In this document: positions 2,196-23,501 of the stretch, piece by piece | How the letters are laid out: every line of letters starts with the position of its first letter | Position numbering within the stretch: the stretch's first letter is position 1 | From: Methanobrevibacter sp. | Lineage (GTDB): Archaea > Methanobacteriota > Methanobacteria > Methanobacteriales > Methanobacteriaceae | Direction of reading: 5' to 3' | DNA length: 64,000 bases | NCBI GenBank assembly: GCA_017434555.1 | Contig: JAFRFB010000051.1 | Coordinates: 1-64,000 of the forward strand | Position numbers and translations under genes: made by a program | Notes under the pieces: model-generated | What the model was told of the DNA's origin: nothing | The model's database searches: none | Seen by the model: only the letters and a program-made list of their open reading frames with translations

Positions 2196-2252
2196 TTATA
2201 TATAAAAACAATGTTATATAACAATGGTTATAATAAAAATAACTATTGTTAT
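2196..2252 (+). promoter_or_regulatory. cysK promoter with ATAAC-N4-GTTAT operators
   Basis: A TATA element (TTTATATATAAA, 2196-2207) is followed at once by overlapping inverted repeats: GTTATATAAC (2213-2222), ATAACAATGGTTAT (2218-2231) and ATAACTATTGTTAT (2239-2252). The last is identical to the site at 6643-6656 in front of metY. Placement over the expected transcription start suggests repression. The binding protein is not known; the HTH regulator at 4068 is the best local candidate by inference. Confidence 0.65.
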
Positions 2253-2307: not shown

Positions 2308-3255
2308 ATGGTGAATGTACCTGAATTAAAAAGAGGAATATTGGATAGCGTTGTTGACGCTATTGGAAATACTCCAATCGTAAAATTAAATAATTTAACA
2401 AAAGATTTAGAAGCAGAAGTGGATGTAAAAATGGAATCTTTCAATCCAACAGGAAGTGTTAAAGACCGTGTTTCTGTTGCAATGATTGAAGATGCAGAAG
2501 AAAAAGGATTATTAAATGAAGATTCTGTAATCGTTGAACCTACCAGCGGTAATACTGGTATTGGTCTTGGTTTTGCTGCAGCTGCAAAAGGCTATAAGTT
2601 AATTTTAACCATGCCTGAAACAATGTCTGTTGAAAGAAGAAAATTGCTCGCTGTTTTCGGTGCTGAAATCGTTTTGACTCCAGGTTCTGAAGGAATGGGT
2701 GGAGCAATTGCAAAAGCAAATGAAATCAAAGAAGAAAATCCTAATGCAATTATTTTAGGTCAATTTGACAATCCTGCTAATGTAGAGATTCATGCAAAAA
2801 CCACAGCTCAGGAAATTTTAAGAGACACCGAAGGAAATGTTGACATTGTCGTTGCCGGTGTCGGAACTGGAGGAACAGTTACTGGTATTGGTAAAGTCTT
2901 AAAAGAAGAAGTTCCTGATGTTAAAATCGTTGCAGTTGAACCACAAGATTCTCAAACATTAGGTAAAGGTGAAAAAGGACCTCACAAAATCCAGGGAATT
3001 GGTGCAGGATTTGTTCCTTCAATTTATGATGAAAATGTTGTAGATGAGATTTTCCCTGTAGCTAATGAGGATGCGGGCAATACTTTAGTTGCACTTGCTA
3101 AAAAAGAAGGTATCTTTGCAGGTATTTCCTCTGGTGCTGCAACTTTCGCTGCTTTAGAATTGGCTAAAAAACCAGAAAACAAAGGTAAAAGAATAATTGC
3201 GATTTTACCGGATAATGGTGAAAGATATTTATCCGTTGACTGGTTATTTGAATAA
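2308..3255 (+). CDS. cysK: Cysteine synthase (O-acetylserine sulfhydrylase)
   Basis: PLP enzyme that makes cysteine from O-acetylserine and sulfide. The PLP lysine sits in PTGSVKDR, the phosphate- and substrate-binding loops are EPTSGNTGIGLG and GVGTGGTVTGIG, and GISSGAA lies near the C terminus. I chose the ATG at 2308 (315 residues) because it follows TTAGGAGAT, and because an in-frame ATG at 2224 would add a non-family N terminus that lies inside the operator repeats. cysE follows at 3355, so substrate-producing and substrate-using enzymes are adjacent. Many methanogens make cysteine on tRNA instead; this locus encodes the free-cysteine route. Specificity for O-phosphoserine rather than O-acetylserine cannot be excluded, but the neighbouring cysE supports O-acetylserine. 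Confidence 0.93.
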   Translation: MVNVPELKRGILDSVVDAIGNTPIVKLNNLTKDLEAEVDVKMESFNPTGSVKDRVSVAMIEDAEEKGLLNEDSVIVEPTSGNTGIGLGFAAAAKGYKLILTMPETMSVERRKLLAVFGAEIVLTPGSEGMGGAIAKANEIKEENPNAIILGQFDNPANVEIHAKTTAQEILRDTEGNVDIVVAGVGTGGTVTGIGKVLKEEVPDVKIVAVEPQDSQTLGKGEKGPHKIQGIGAGFVPSIYDENVVDEIFPVANEDAGNTLVALAKKEGIFAGISSGAATFAALELAKKPENKGKRIIAILPDNGERYLSVDWLFE

Positions 3256-3279: not shown

Positions 3280-3300
3280 TTTAAATATAACATATGGTAT
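3280..3300 (+). promoter_or_regulatory. cysE promoter region with a variant operator
   Basis: ATAACATATGGTAT at 3287-3300 matches the ATAAC-N4-GTTAT sites of the cysK and metY promoters except for one base in the right arm. It overlaps the TATA-like TTTAAATATAA stretch. This suggests that cysE and the regulator behind it are controlled with the other sulfur genes, though cysE might also be read through from cysK. Confidence 0.5.
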
Positions 3301-3354: not shown

Positions 3355-4065
3355 ATGTTTGACGGGCTGAGAAGTGAAATTCAAGCTATAAAAGAAAAAG
3401 ATCCTGCTGCAAGAAGCACTCTGGAGATATTTTTATGTTATCCTGGATTTTATGCATTACTTATGCATAGGGTTAGTCATTATCTCTGGAAACATTCTTT
3501 TAAGCTTCTTGCAAGGATGAATTCTAATTTGGCAAGATTTATCACAGGTATTGAGATTCATCCCGGTGCAACTTTCGGTAAACGTGTCTTCATTGACCAT
3601 GGAATGGGTGTTGTTGTAGGTGAGACTACTGAAGTTGGTGATGATGTATTGATTTATCAGGGAGTTATCCTTGGTGGAACCACTACTCAGAAAACCAAAC
3701 GTCACCCTACAATTGAACGTGGAGTAATTATTGGTGCTGGTGCTAAAGTGATGGGAAACATTACTATTGGTGAATATTCCAAAATTGGTACTGGTGCTGT
3801 CGTTTTAAAGGATGTTCCTCCGGAATCCACTTGTGTTGGGGTCCCTGGAAGAATTGTCAAGTGTAAAAATAATGCTCATATTGTCGATTTAGAACATAAT
3901 AAATTACCTGACCCTGTTGCTGAAGCAATCAGGTCTTTAGAAAAGCAAATTGAAGAAAATGAGGAAATTATTAAAATTTTACTTGATAAACATGATCTCT
4001 GTTTAAATGATGGTGTCTTAGAGAATAAGAACTACGGAGATATATTTAAAAAAGATGGTGATTGA
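3355..4065 (+). CDS. cysE: Serine O-acetyltransferase
   Basis: Acetylates serine with acetyl-CoA to give O-acetylserine, the substrate of the upstream cysteine synthase. The 236-residue protein has a short N-terminal helical domain (about residues 1-65) and a left-handed beta-helix of hexapeptide repeats (about 66-160), with the conserved [21 protein letters not shown] segment (cut here to its key features: GATFG, DHG, VVGETT) and the [14 protein letters not shown] loop. It is shorter than enterobacterial CysE and resembles the compact type. GAGGT precedes the ATG. The stop codon is 2 bases before the ATG of the regulator gene, so they form one transcript. Confidence 0.93.
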
Positions 4066-4067
4066 TA

Positions 4068-4442
4068 ATGAAACCGCCCTGCGAAATAGTTGTATGGTAT
4101 GTAATACCTGCTATCAGATCAGAATTAGCTAAAGAACTATTGAATTTAGGAATGAAACAGAAAGATGTATCTGAACTTATGGACATAACTCAACCTGCAG
4201 TATCACAGTATATCACAGATAAACGTGGTAGTGGAATCAAGTTAGAAGATGATGTTAAGGATATGATTAAAGCTTTTGCATTTGAATTGTCAACTGGTGA
4301 ATCCACTAAAGCAGATTTAATTCCAAGAACCTGTTCAATTTGCAGAAATGTTAGTCCTGCCGATGTTTTAAACCAACTTGATGTTGATAAATCTGAGTTA
4401 AACGAAGATTGTCAATCCTGTATGGGCTCTGAAGCAAAATAG
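4068..4442 (+). CDS. HTH transcriptional regulator with four C-terminal cysteines
   Basis: A 124-residue predicted DNA-binding protein. The helix-turn-helix is GMKQKDVSELMDITQPAVSQYI, whose key residues are MKQKDV and QPAVSQY (about residues 30-52). The C-terminal half has C-x2-C-x22-C-x2-C, a possible metal or Fe-S site. It resembles the archaeal COG2522 predicted regulators. The ATG at 4068 is preferred over an in-frame TTG at 4062, with GGTGAT just upstream. Its position between cysE and tRNA-Cys/cysS, and the shared ATAAC-N4-GTTAT palindromes nearby, make it the natural candidate for a local sulfur or Fe-S sensing regulator. That role is inferred; no binding data are visible in sequence. 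Confidence 0.8.
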   Translation: MKPPCEIVVWYVIPAIRSELAKELLNLGMKQKDVSELMDITQPAVSQYITDKRGSGIKLEDDVKDMIKAFAFELSTGESTKADLIPRTCSICRNVSPADVLNQLDVDKSELNEDCQSCMGSEAK

Positions 4443-4515: not shown

Positions 4516-4587
4516 GGCAAGTTAACCGAGCGGCTTAGGTGCGTGGCTGCAGACCATGAAACGGGGGTTCAAATCCCTCACTTGCCT
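4516..4587 (+). tRNA. tRNA-Cys (anticodon GCA)
   Basis: The acceptor stem pairs GGCAAGT (4516-4522) with ACTTGCC (4580-4586). The D arm has an ACC/GGT stem. The anticodon stem CGTGG/CCATG includes one G-U pair and encloses the loop CTGCAGA, giving anticodon GCA. The T arm is GGGGG-TTCAAAT-CCCTC. The 3' CCA is not encoded. The gene lies 34 bases upstream of the cysteinyl-tRNA synthetase gene, within the cysteine island. A TATA-like element (CTTTATATACTA, about 4468-4479) is upstream. Confidence 0.95.
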
Positions 4588-4620
4588 CTATTTATATAAT
4601 TATTTTTTGAGGAATTTTTT

Positions 4621-5961
4621 ATGGATATTTACTCTACATTAACTCGTAGTAAAGAAAATTTAGAAACCATTAACAAAAATCGAATAAATTTATTTGTTTG
4701 TGGTCCAACTGTTTATGATGATGCGCATATTGGTCATGGAAGAACCTATATCTCTTTTGATACAATTAAAAGATATTTGGAATACTCCGGATACGCTGTT
4801 TTTTATATTCAAAATATTACAGACATTGATGATAAGATTATAAACAGGTCAAAAGAATCAGGAATTCCAGCACATGATATAGCTAGGAAGTTTGAAAAAA
4901 GATATATTGAAGACATGACTAAATTAAATGTCACAGGCGTTAATTTATTCGCAAGAGCAACTGATCATCTTGGTGAAATAATAGACCAAATTCAAAGATT
5001 AATAGATAAAGGATTTGCCTACGAAAGTGAAGATGGAGTTTACTTTGAAATTAAAAAATTTGAAGAGTTTGGAAAACTGTCAAATCGTAAAGTTGATGAG
5101 CTGGAATCACATAGGCAATTGGCCGAAACCACCAAAAGAAATGAACAGGATTTCGCACTATGGAAAAAACGTGAAGGTGTAGATGAACCTGTATGGCCTT
5201 CTCCATGGGGTGACGGAAGGCCTGGATGGCATATTGAAGATACTGCAATTACAGAATACTACTTCGGTGAGCAATATGATGTTCACGGTGGAGGTCTGGA
5301 TTTGATTTTCCCTCACCACGAAGCTGAAATTACTCAAATGGAAGCTGTAAGCGGCAAATCTCCAATGGTAAGGTACTGGTTGCATACAGGATTTTTAAAT
5401 GTTAACGGGGAAAAAATGTCCAAATCCCTTCATAATTTCATTACGATCCGTGAATTGCTAAAAGATTGGGATGCAGACACATTCAGATTCTTTGTATTGT
5501 CCACTCATTACAGAAGTCCTATTGACTTTTCAAAAGATTCCCTTCACCAATCCCAAAAAAGTTTGGAAAAAATTAAAAAATTCTATTCCGCTTTGGATGT
5601 TGAAGTAGGGGACGTTGAATCTGATTTGGAAGCTTTAACTATAGCTAAAGAAGAATTCTTTAACAGTATGGATGATGACTTTAACACTCCAAAAGCTATT
5701 GCTTCTCTTTTTGTTTTAATCAGTGACTGCAAATCCATTGAATTATCAGATAATGATAAAATAGCTGTTAAATCATTTTTAGATGATGTTTCTCAGATTT
5801 TAGGTATTGACTTTACCTTAGAAGAAGTATCTGCAGGATCAGATGATTTATTGAATTTAATTACTGATGTCAGATCCGAGTTAAGAGCAGCAAAACAATA
5901 TGATTTATCCGATAAAATACGTGATGAGTTAAATAAGTTAGGTTATGAAATAAATGATTGA
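4621..5961 (+). CDS. cysS: Cysteinyl-tRNA synthetase
   Basis: Class I synthetase that charges tRNA-Cys with cysteine. The 446-residue protein has the zinc-binding FVCGPTVYD start, the HIGH-type AHIGHGRTYISFD, the GWHIEDTA and HGGGLDLIFPHHEAE zinc/active-site segments, and the KMSKS motif GEKMSKSLHN. TGAGGAAT lies upstream of the ATG. Methanogens may charge tRNA-Cys either directly or by the phosphoserine (SepRS/SepCysS) route; this gene shows the direct route exists here, and it is placed right after its own tRNA gene. The minus-strand flavoprotein gene converges on its 3' end with 8 bases between. Confidence 0.96.
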   Translation: MDIYSTLTRSKENLETINKNRINLFVCGPTVYDDAHIGHGRTYISFDTIKRYLEYSGYAVFYIQNITDIDDKIINRSKESGIPAHDIARKFEKRYIEDMTKLNVTGVNLFARATDHLGEIIDQIQRLIDKGFAYESEDGVYFEIKKFEEFGKLSNRKVDELESHRQLAETTKRNEQDFALWKKREGVDEPVWPSPWGDGRPGWHIEDTAITEYYFGEQYDVHGGGLDLIFPHHEAEITQMEAVSGKSPMVRYWLHTGFLNVNGEKMSKSLHNFITIRELLKDWDADTFRFFVLSTHYRSPIDFSKDSLHQSQKSLEKIKKFYSALDVEVGDVESDLEALTIAKEEFFNSMDDDFNTPKAIASLFVLISDCKSIELSDNDKIAVKSFLDDVSQILGIDFTLEEVSAGSDDLLNLITDVRSELRAAKQYDLSDKIRDELNKLGYEIND

Positions 5962-5969
5962 AAAGGAGA

Positions 5970-6488
5970 TTAAATCTCCAATTCTTCTATTTTTTTAAGT
6001 GCATCTTCGATGCCTTCGCCTTTTCCGGCAGCACCTTTTGCAATAATTGTGTCAATTACTTCCATTCCCATGTAAGCAAACGGCATTGTTTCTAATGATT
6101 TTATGTATCCGTCAAATGCATCTCCAGGATTTGCCTGGGTAAATATTTGGATAACTTTTTTACCTTCTAATGATTTTTCAGGATTTTGTGAAATCATATA
6201 GAATCTGTCTATAATTGTTTTTGCCTGTGCTGACATTTGACCGTAGTAAATTGGGGATGCGAATACGATAATGTCTGAATCCAGCATTTCATCGATTATT
6301 TTTCTTCCGTCATCATCTTTAATACAGTCACCTTTTTGGCATGATTGGCATGCGTTACAGAACTGTAAATCTACATCGTTGAGGTAGAATTTTTTAGTAT
6401 ATCCTTCCATATTTTCAAATAGTTTTGAAACTAATTGGTCACAATTTCCTTCTTTACGTGGACTTCCGATTAAAGCAATAGTTTTCAT
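5970..6488 (-). CDS. Iron-sulfur flavoprotein (flavodoxin-fold FMN reductase family)
   Basis: A 172-residue flavodoxin-like protein with the FMN phosphate loop GSPRKEGNCD and the SPIYYGQMSAQ motif of NADPH-dependent FMN reductases. It carries a compact cysteine motif C-x2-C-x2-C-x4-C (CNACQSCQKGDC, residues about 44-55), as described for archaeal iron-sulfur flavoproteins (Isf), which hold a 4Fe-4S cluster and FMN. Such proteins have been linked to oxidant removal in methanogens. AGGAGAG precedes the ATG. It is divergent from metY and shares the operator-rich intergenic region, so it may belong to the same sulfur or redox regulon. The physiological electron partner is unknown. Confidence 0.85.
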   Translation of the reverse strand: MKTIALIGSPRKEGNCDQLVSKLFENMEGYTKKFYLNDVDLQFCNACQSCQKGDCIKDDDGRKIIDEMLDSDIIVFASPIYYGQMSAQAKTIIDRFYMISQNPEKSLEGKKVIQIFTQANPGDAFDGYIKSLETMPFAYMGMEVIDTIIAKGAAGKGEGIEDALKKIEELEI

Positions 6489-6544: not shown

Positions 6545-6580
6545 ATAACAATGTTTATATACTATAATAACATATGTTAT
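6545..6580 (-). promoter_or_regulatory. Operators at the iron-sulfur flavoprotein promoter
   Basis: Two palindromic boxes, ATAACAATGTTTAT (6545-6558) and ATAACATATGTTAT (6567-6580), flank the minus-strand TATA-like sequence AGTATATAAAC (reverse complement of about 6555-6565). A further half site ATAAC is at 6584-6588. They match the boxes upstream of cysK, cysE and metY. Binding and function are inferred. Confidence 0.6.
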
Positions 6581-6603: not shown

Positions 6604-6656
6604 CCTAAAATTTAGGTTAATCAAAACATTTATATATAAAAAATAACTATTGTTAT
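6604..6656 (+). promoter_or_regulatory. metY-nifS-iscU promoter with DtxR-like and sulfur-type boxes
   Basis: CCTAAAATTTAGG (6604-6616) is a perfect inverted repeat and runs into TTTAGGTTAATCAAAAC (6611-6627). This stretch matches 15 of 17 positions of the element directly upstream of the TATA box of the DtxR-family gene at 42441. A TATA box (TTTATATATAAA, about 6629-6640) follows, then ATAACTATTGTTAT at 6643-6656, identical to the cysK box. The promoter therefore seems built for two regulators, one iron-type and one sulfur-type. Both assignments are inferences from motif similarity and position. Confidence 0.55.
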
Positions 6657-6714: not shown

Positions 6715-8010
6715 ATGAGTAATAAAAATTATAGATTAGCAACTTTAGGTGTAAGAGCAGGTCAAGAACCAGATCCGGTAACCGGAGCACAGGCTGTTCC
6801 TATTTATCAGACAACTTCGTATGTATTCAAGGATTCTGATGAAGCTGCAAGGCGTTTCGCCCTTCAAGAATTTGGTCAAATTTATTCAAGACTTACAAAT
6901 CCAACTAATGATGTATTTGAAGCAAGAATTGCTGCTATAGAAGGTGGAAATTCTGGTATTTCAACATCAAGTGGTCTTGCAGCAATATCCTATGCAATAT
7001 TGAATGTCACTCAACCTGGAGACAATATAGTATCTGCAGATAACCTATATGGTGGAACTTACCAGCTCTTTGATTACACATTTAAAGATTTGGCAAGAGA
7101 AGTAAGGTTTGTCGATTCACAAGATTTACAGGCATTTGAAGATGCTATTGATGAAAAAACAAAAGCAATCTATGCCGAATCAATAGGTAATCCAAAATTA
7201 GACGTACCTGACTTTGAAGCTTTGGCTGAAATTGCTCACAGTCATGACATTCCATTAATTGTCGACAACACTGTTGGTGTAGGTTTGGTAAGACCTTTGG
7301 AACATGGTGCTGATGTAATTGCAGCATCCGCAACAAAATATGTCGGCGGACATGGAACTGCTGTCGGTGGATATATTGTCGATTCCGGTAAATTCAACTG
7401 GGGTAACGGTAAATTCCCAAACTTCTCTGAACCGGATCCAAGTTATCATGGATTAGTGTTCTGGGATTCATTTGGAGACGTGCCTGAACTTGGAAATCTT
7501 GCATTTACCGTAAGAGTAAGAGCAAGATTATTAAGGGATTTAGGAGCAACTTTAGCACCGGTACACGCATTTCTTTTCCTACAAGGTTTGGAAAGTTTGG
7601 ATGTACGTGTAAAAAGACATTCTGAAAATGCCTTAAAAGTAGCGCAATTTTTAGAATCCCATCCTAAAGTAAAATGGGTAAACTATCCTGGTTTAGAATC
7701 CCATCCAACATATGAAAATAATAAAAAATACTTGAAAGATAATTTCGCAGGTATTTTAGGATTTGGAGTTGAAGGTGGAGAAGAAGCAGGCAGAAAAGTA
7801 ATTGAACATTTAAACCTTTTCTCAATTCTTGCAAACATTGGGGACGCTAAAAGTTTAGCTATTCACCCTGCAAGTACCACTCATCAGCAATTGACTCCGG
7901 AAGAACAGGAATCAACTGGTGTAACTCCAGACTTCATTAGATTATCAATAGGTCTTGAAGACGTAAATGATTTGATCGATGATTTAAGTCAAGCTTTAGA
8001 TAAAATTTAA
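6715..8010 (+). CDS. metY: O-acetylhomoserine sulfhydrylase (PLP-dependent)
   Basis: Cys/Met-metabolism PLP enzyme, 431 residues, the size of O-acetylhomoserine (thiol)-lyases, which add sulfide to O-acetylhomoserine to form homocysteine. Features are [22 protein letters not shown]-type substrate residues (key part SRLTNPTND), the PLP lysine in [10 protein letters not shown], and the C-terminal [15 protein letters not shown] segment. A good ribosome-binding site (AAGGTGAT) precedes the ATG at 6715. nifS follows 27 bases downstream and iscU after that, so sulfide use for methionine and for Fe-S clusters is on one transcript. A gamma-synthase or gamma-lyase activity cannot be fully excluded by motif alone. 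Confidence 0.92.
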
Positions 8011-22739: not shown

Positions 22740-23501
22740 TTATTCCTTTACGTATGCATCTGCATTTTCATCAAATGGATTTGTACGCACTATTAATGCA
22801 ATCATGTATGGGTAGTGTTTGTTAAGGTATCTTAAATAGTAAATCCATTCGTGAATTAACTTATTGTAAATTCTTTCCATATCTCCGTTAAGGTGATTGA
22901 AATCGATATCGCTGACTTTGCTTAAATCAGGTCTGTGTTCGAGTTCCTCATCCAAATGAAGAATTGCTGTCAATAATCCTGAAAATTCTTCTTTTTCAAG
23001 TAAATTTGGATTATTCAATAGATTAATTATAAACTCTCTTTTATTAACCAATAAATTTCTAACATTGGTTAAATATTCTTCTCTATTTTCCGGTGAAACA
23101 TCTGCTTTAAATGGGATGTTTTTGTCTTTGATTTCTTTCAATTTGTTTTCATAGTCTTTATCATCCCAGTTTTTGATGGATTCAAGATAATTGGTATCTG
23201 CTTTATGTGCATTGACGGAACTTAACTGACCGATTAAATCGTTTCCAATTTCGGAAAAGAATGTGGACATAATCATATCAAGTTTTTCCAACATTGCTTC
23301 TTTTTCTTTTTTGCTTATAATTTCATCAAGTACAAATGCCACGATGAGTATATCTACAGGAATGAAACCTAAATGTGTCCAGATATAAGAGATGACATGT
23401 TCCGGATCTTTTAAAATCAGTATATTTGACCCGTAAATAACGATTATTGCAATAACCATTATTATTGAAAATTTTATTTTCCATCTGTTATGGCTTTCCA
23501 T
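22740..23501 (-). CDS. Two-helix membrane protein of unknown function
   Basis: A 253-residue protein with two N-terminal transmembrane helices (about residues 9-28 and 42-60) and a long cytosolic helical domain rich in Lys, Glu and Asp. A predicted helical stretch with LDMIMSTFFSEIGNDL follows the membrane part, then a hydrophilic region with EELEHRPDLS. I recognise no family motif. It lies in the mobA operon, 18 bases downstream of cbiT. Its position does not clearly suggest a function. Confidence 0.75.
   Translation of the reverse strand: MESHNRWKIKFSIIMVIAIIVIYGSNILILKDPEHVISYIWTHLGFIPVDILIVAFVLDEIISKKEKEAMLEKLDMIMSTFFSEIGNDLIGQLSSVNAHKADTNYLESIKNWDDKDYENKLKEIKDKNIPFKADVSPENREEYLTNVRNLLVNKREFIINLLNNPNLLEKEEFSGLLTAILHLDEELEHRPDLSKVSDIDFNHLNGDMERIYNKLIHEWIYYLRYLNKHYPYMIALIVRTNPFDENADAYVKE

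Follow-up and report, generated by a model that had tools for sequence, protein, structure and literature searches.

A small helix-turn-helix protein with a conserved cysteine tail as the predicted regulator of sulfur and cysteine genes in gut methanogens

The analysed window, a stretch of 64,000 nucleotides from Methanobrevibacter sp. (contig JAFRFB010000051.1), possesses a cysteine island near its beginning. The island contains genes for cysteine synthase A, serine O-acetyltransferase, a small helix-turn-helix (HTH) protein, tRNA-Cys, cysteinyl-tRNA synthetase, a flavodoxin/NADPH-FMN-reductase-like protein and a sulfhydrylase, along with several copies of a short palindrome (Table 1). A preliminary description of this DNA had placed the HTH gene in one transcript with cysE and close to tRNA-Cys and cysS, and had considered it the only regulator gene of the island. 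Both neighbours are indeed situated downstream of it, and among the open reading frames of the window's first ~13 kb no other encodes an HTH protein. The reading frame of the regulator starts with an in-frame ATG just behind the cysE stop codon; this short spacing and the retention of the cysE-regulator pair across Methanobrevibacter suggest that the two genes are probably co-transcribed. The order aroA-nth-cysK-cysE-regulator-(tRNA-Cys)-cysS was found in nearly all Methanobrevibacter loci with enough flanking sequence, tRNA-Cys being checked in a subset, and metY-nifS-iscU usually follows downstream of cysS. In other genera of Methanobacteriaceae the regulator adjoins cysE and/or cysK (e.g. 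G002, G005, G009, G016, G019 and G137).

Table 1. Genes and predicted control sites of the cysteine island in the window.
Feature	Position	Strand	Remarks
cysK TATA box TTTATATATAAA	2195..2206	+	starts 23 bp before first full palindrome
partial operator AAACAATGTTA, N3 spacing	2206..2216	.	between cysK TATA box and first full palindrome
operator ATAACAATGGTTAT	2218..2231	.	before cysK
operator ATAACTATTGTTAT	2239..2252	.	before cysK
cysK, cysteine synthase A	2308..3255	+	TIGR01139; predicted target
operator variant ATAACATATGGTAT, one mismatch	3287..3300	.	before cysE-regulator
cysE, serine O-acetyltransferase	3355..4065	+	TIGR01172, 243 bits; 2 nt before regulator
HTH regulator	4068..4442	+	lambda-repressor-like HTH (residues ~20-54) and Cys4 tail C89, C92, C115, C118, plus C5
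tRNA-Cys (gca)	4516..4588	+	neighbour; palindrome absent before it
cysS, cysteinyl-tRNA synthetase	4621..5961	+	neighbour; operator upstream in 0/41 Methanobrevibacter promoters
flavodoxin/NADPH-FMN-reductase-like gene	5970..6488	-	named from sequence; divergent predicted target of the 6545-6580 operators
operator variant ATAACAATGTTTAT	6545..6558	.	metY/FMN-reductase intergenic region
operator ATAACATATGTTAT	6567..6580	.	metY/FMN-reductase intergenic region
metY TATA box TTTATATATAAA	6629..6640	+	directly before 6643 operator
operator ATAACTATTGTTAT	6643..6656	.	between metY TATA box and expected start; 3 bp behind TATA box
metY, O-acetylhomoserine/O-acetylserine sulfhydrylase	6715..8010	+	TIGR01326; predicted target

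The regulator gene encodes a protein of 124 aa and is single-copy in its own genome. As 125 of 139 Methanobacteriaceae genomes, including 77 of the 78 near-complete ones, encode it, the reading frame represents a conserved gene and not a chance ORF. Residues 21-53 matched the Pfam family HTH_3 (PF01381) with an E-value of 8.4e-5 and a score of 23.0 bits, the same as the gathering score, and the sequence profile also matched lambda-repressor-like chains of the PDB at profile level. Beyond this generic HTH, neither Pfam nor NCBIfam yielded a family model that describes the stand-alone protein, and the literature search returned no paper covering it. The tail with the spacing C-x2-C-x22-C-x2-C noted in the preliminary description is real (C89-x2-C92-x22-C115-x2-C118), and C5 has to be added to it as a further invariant cysteine. 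Residue conservation analysis in 108 aligned members showed that C5 is conserved equally to the four tail cysteines, each of the five being kept in 99% (107/108), along with the conserved positions P4, E6, R17, T41-Q42, A44, Y48, R53 and G54. The AlphaFold model is composed of an all-helical HTH core (mean pLDDT 84.9) and a less certain cysteine tail, with pLDDT of ~56 around residues 111-120. Foldseek comparison of this model with the PDB gave no match below E 0.001, hence the structure adds no family for the regulator.

The palindrome before the cysteine genes follows a common pattern. By comparative sequence analysis, the predicted operator is TAAC-N3/4-GTTA, which takes the form ATAACWATWGTTAT in the Methanobacteriaceae methanogens. 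In the genome to which the window belongs, the generic pattern ATAACNNNNGTTAT was not enriched genome-wide (21 sites against 29 of the control) while the palindrome with a WATW core was found 9 times against 0 in the control, showing that only the WATW core carries the signal. A survey of promoters in 47 Methanobrevibacter loci revealed exact ATAACWATWGTTAT before 36/40 cysK and all 29 metY genes, with less than 1% in shuffled sequences, and an exact palindrome before all six FMN-reductase-like genes. Among cysE promoters, 21/44 carry a site that has no more than one mismatch (3% in shuffles). In the same loci no exact palindrome was found before aroA, nth, cysS, nifS, iscU or recJ. The first full cysK palindrome begins 23 bp after the start of the TATA box in 32 of 37 cysK promoters. 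The own-genome cysK promoter had hinted at a fixed tandem spacing of 21 bp; this was rejected, as the spacings differ by promoter and species (13.5, 15, 20, 22, 23 and 26.5 bp were seen). One more exact TAAC-N4-GTTA (TAACATTGGTTA) is situated outside the island at positions 23060-23071 of the window.

Apart from cysK and metY, sites in the own genome stand directly before fdhD, moaE and thiS, the last with divergent thiF, and directly before genes for a 4Fe-4S protein and an NMT1-type periplasmic binding (transporter) protein. Two other loci of this genome are also among those preceded by the nine sites. A Phos_pyr_kin (pyridoxine-kinase-like) gene on contig C82 (L145:2948-3838) has an exact operator 39 bp upstream, and its product could supply PLP to CysK, MetY and NifS. 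On contig C141 (L153:2887-6000) an operator lies upstream of a GATase gene, with a glutamate-cysteine ligase homologue behind it; this hints that a gut methanogen could make gamma-glutamylcysteine and control its synthesis together with the sulfur genes.

The same target set recurred in Methanosphaera and a third genus. None of the island genes sought near the Methanosphaera regulator gene was found there. The sulfur targets of this genus keep the palindrome even with the regulator gene located far away from the cys genes: sites precede cysK/cysE, metY, nifS-iscU, the NMT1 protein gene, a glutamate-cysteine-ligase-like gene and thiF. The regulator promoters themselves mostly contain TAACAWTGTGA at the TATA box, and exact ATAACTATAGTTAT occurs in two of them. 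In the third genus (G013), palindromes were found before moaE, cysS, thiF, thiI and a PLP enzyme of Cys/Met metabolism, as well as before NifH-like and rubrerythrin-like genes and a few unrelated surface protein genes.

Co-occurrence of regulator and palindrome, which the preliminary description had proposed as a check, was counted in genomes with a completeness of 90% or more. Of those with an intact regulator, 79 of 81 have one or more exact palindromes, against none of the 15 in which the regulator is not intact, so that no near-complete genome has the palindrome without the regulator. Near-complete regulator-bearing genomes contain 595 sites in total against 52 of the reversed control. The 15 genomes without an intact regulator represent only about five lineages, and in the regulator-less genomes that were searched cysE, cysK and metY are also absent. 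In G138 the regulator has a premature stop and the change R17M, and cysE, cysK, metY and the palindrome are all lost. As regulator, palindrome and cysE/cysK/metY disappear together in only these few lineages, co-occurrence alone cannot separate the regulator from its targets. The two exceptions among the 81 genomes are G120, which has the variant TAACAGTGTTA before both cysK and the regulator, and G101, where the regulator is intact and the cys genes are present, without any palindrome. Several incomplete genomes (e.g. G030 and G032) contain palindromes and no detected regulator, which could be explained by missing sequence.

Upstream of cysK-cysE-cysS in G101 (L162:80-262), where the palindrome is missing, two tandem hairpins were observed. 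Their loops are near-identical (CTTTTTTTATGGTGGWGATG), their flanks are GATTTACA/TGTAAATC and the RNA fold has a z-score of -4.3. They gave no Rfam match and may act as a tandem element that controls the cys operon, in the form of RNA or DNA.

Relatives of the regulator with ~30-37% identity were found in Aenigmarchaeota, Undinarchaea, Odin-, Thor- and Bathyarchaea. The remote set consisted of five relatives from these other archaeal phyla, with 32-36% identity, and three further members of the same genomes. An exact TAAC-N3/4-GTTA lies within 100 bp of the regulator start codon in six of these eight members (dinucleotide-shuffle P 7.8e-14), and the remaining two have the motif with one mismatch. 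The site of L246 is TAACAATTGTTA, as in methanogens. No site was found before the gene of the outlier L245, which possesses neither C5 nor the first C-x2-C pair. In the Bathyarchaeon an identical stretch of 20 bp, ATATAACGCTGTCATACTAC, precedes both the regulator and cysK, and in a sample of its phylum exact sites were found in 6/21 scorable members (P 3.5e-9), two of the six being closely related. The short TAACNNNGTTA shows no genome-wide enrichment in the remote archaea; it is significant only where it stands before the regulator gene. This position before the relatives' own genes indicates autoregulation through the same operator, and the simplest reading of these sequence patterns is that the regulator family binds TAAC-N3/4-GTTA.

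Other subfamilies in the sample of the Bathyarchaeon's phylum show a changed half-site. ATGAC-N4-GTCAT precedes the own regulator gene in L264, L276 and L278, and ATTAC-AATW-GTAAT in L280, L281 and L282; the palindrome geometry is unchanged and one base of the half-site differs. L283 also belongs to these subfamilies, alongside L264, L276 and L278; the sites are often doubled, ~19-21 bp apart. The neighbours of the remote genes, several of them named from sequence, include nifS-iscU beside L061 and cysK, a sulfite-reductase-like gene and TusA near L064. L065 sits between ThiF and MoaE/YbaK-like/cysS, and L243 between cysK and nifS. In most relatives, though not in the genus Methanobrevibacter, one further C-x2-H/C pair separates the two C-x2-C pairs. 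It is a tentative and rather doubtful extension of these patterns that the proteins form an undescribed archaea-wide stand-alone HTH-Cys family that controls sulfur assimilation, with the operator TNAC-N3/4-GTNA conserved across phyla, one half-site base being switched between subfamilies (TAAC, TGAC, TTAC), and in which the cysteine cluster would be the sensor and would itself be built from what the regulon provides, Fe-S or cysteine sulfur.

Among known regulators, ThiR possesses the same N-terminal HTH and cysteine module as the window protein (MKPPCE..., TQ.AVS.Y, C-x2-C pairs). It is presented in PMC10746257 as the predicted thiamine regulator PF0601. ThiR has a C-terminal ThiN domain, whereas the window protein ends at 124 aa without a ThiN match; ThiR controls thiamine genes, whereas the palindrome of the window protein marks sulfur genes. 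A Thorarchaeal ThiN fusion (L241/L062) aligns to regulator residues 1-118 with all cysteines kept, and its ThiN domain matched PF10120 with an E-value of 2e-32. The variant TAACAGTGTTA was observed directly upstream of this fusion gene, which adjoins an ABC transporter with a ThiB-like binding protein. The comparison suggests an ancestral operator shared by ThiR and the sulfur regulator.

SurR of Thermococcales is likewise an archaeal sulfur-responsive transcription factor. It is of the ArsR type, has a CxxC redox switch and recognizes GTTn3AACn5GTT, in contrast to the conserved TAAC-N3/4-GTTA here, and the window protein has HTH_3 as its best Pfam match and no match to HTH_5. The bacterial Rrf2 proteins IscR and CymR have a similar job, in which a single regulator governs the genes that supply cysteine and Fe-S and may sense Fe-S, but their HTH family is unrelated and their cysteine pattern differs; no Rrf2 domain was matched in the window protein in Pfam or NCBIfam. 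MsvR is a methanogen regulator with functional cysteines (PMC3729527), to which family searches detected no sequence relation; the predicted targets here belong to sulfur metabolism.

Very probably the regulator acts as master switch for a set of sulfur and cysteine genes in gut methanogens, and we consider it highly likely that this protein is the regulator of the palindrome regulon. That it would control the cysteine island through the palindrome, as proposed in the preliminary description, is strongly supported by the co-occurrence, the Methanosphaera targets and the operators before the remote genes; the proposal has to be enlarged in one respect, as the predicted regulon is wider than the island. 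A dimer of the protein would bind the operator through its HTH and block recruitment of RNA polymerase when sulfur or cysteine is plentiful. Repression is the likely mode of action because the operators adjoin the TATA box or follow it closely, and these are blocking positions. The whole explanation, a small autoregulated repressor controlling a sulfur-assimilation regulon, is likewise judged likely.

Activation of the sulfur genes by the same protein when sulfur is short appears improbable. Two arrangements would suit an activator: most Methanosphaera regulator promoters have their TAACAWTGTGA-like site upstream of the TATA box, and some metY sites are located 60-100 bp further upstream than the proximal one. 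The main cysK and metY operators, however, follow the TATA box and cover the region where transcription is expected to start, and in the remote archaea no more than ~50 bp separate the site from the start codon; both positions normally block initiation. Still less credible is that a different transcription factor binds the palindrome and the HTH protein is a mere neighbour. The joint inheritance of regulator, cys genes and palindrome would be expected in that case too, and G101 retains the regulator without the palindrome, but the remote family genes have the same operator directly upstream, and the Methanosphaera palindrome keeps its targets with the regulator gene elsewhere.

The signal is a more balanced matter. 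Since the repressor has just 124 residues and no ligand domain, its cysteine tail appears to be the only obvious sensing element, and the four cysteines would suit either Fe-S or Zn. The Cys4 site, possibly along with C5, may set the state of the protein, and sulfur shortage might lead to loss of the cluster or metal and release of the target genes. That the cysteines are the sulfur sensor is plausible but falls somewhat short of probable. A structural zinc site is a real alternative because the ThiR-type protein with its own ThiN keeps all cysteines, C5 included, and many relatives have the extra C-x2-H/C pair; the equal conservation of C5 points the same way. The operator-binding regulator would then respond to a small molecule such as O-acetylserine, to a partner such as a CysE/CysK complex or to the redox state of C5. 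Against this, the stand-alone, helices-only protein offers no further domain for holding a ligand, and its sulfur-gene targets fit a sulfur-derived cluster; we regard the structural-zinc alternative as having nearly even chances.

Sensing of sulfur and cysteine status by methanogens is little described in the literature searched. For the gut methanogens, the present analysis provides a candidate regulator, an exact predicted operator and a list of putative targets, and it places the regulator in a deep archaeal relationship with ThiR. The operator conserved before the regulators' own genes suggests that regulons across the archaea may be readable from this autoregulatory site.
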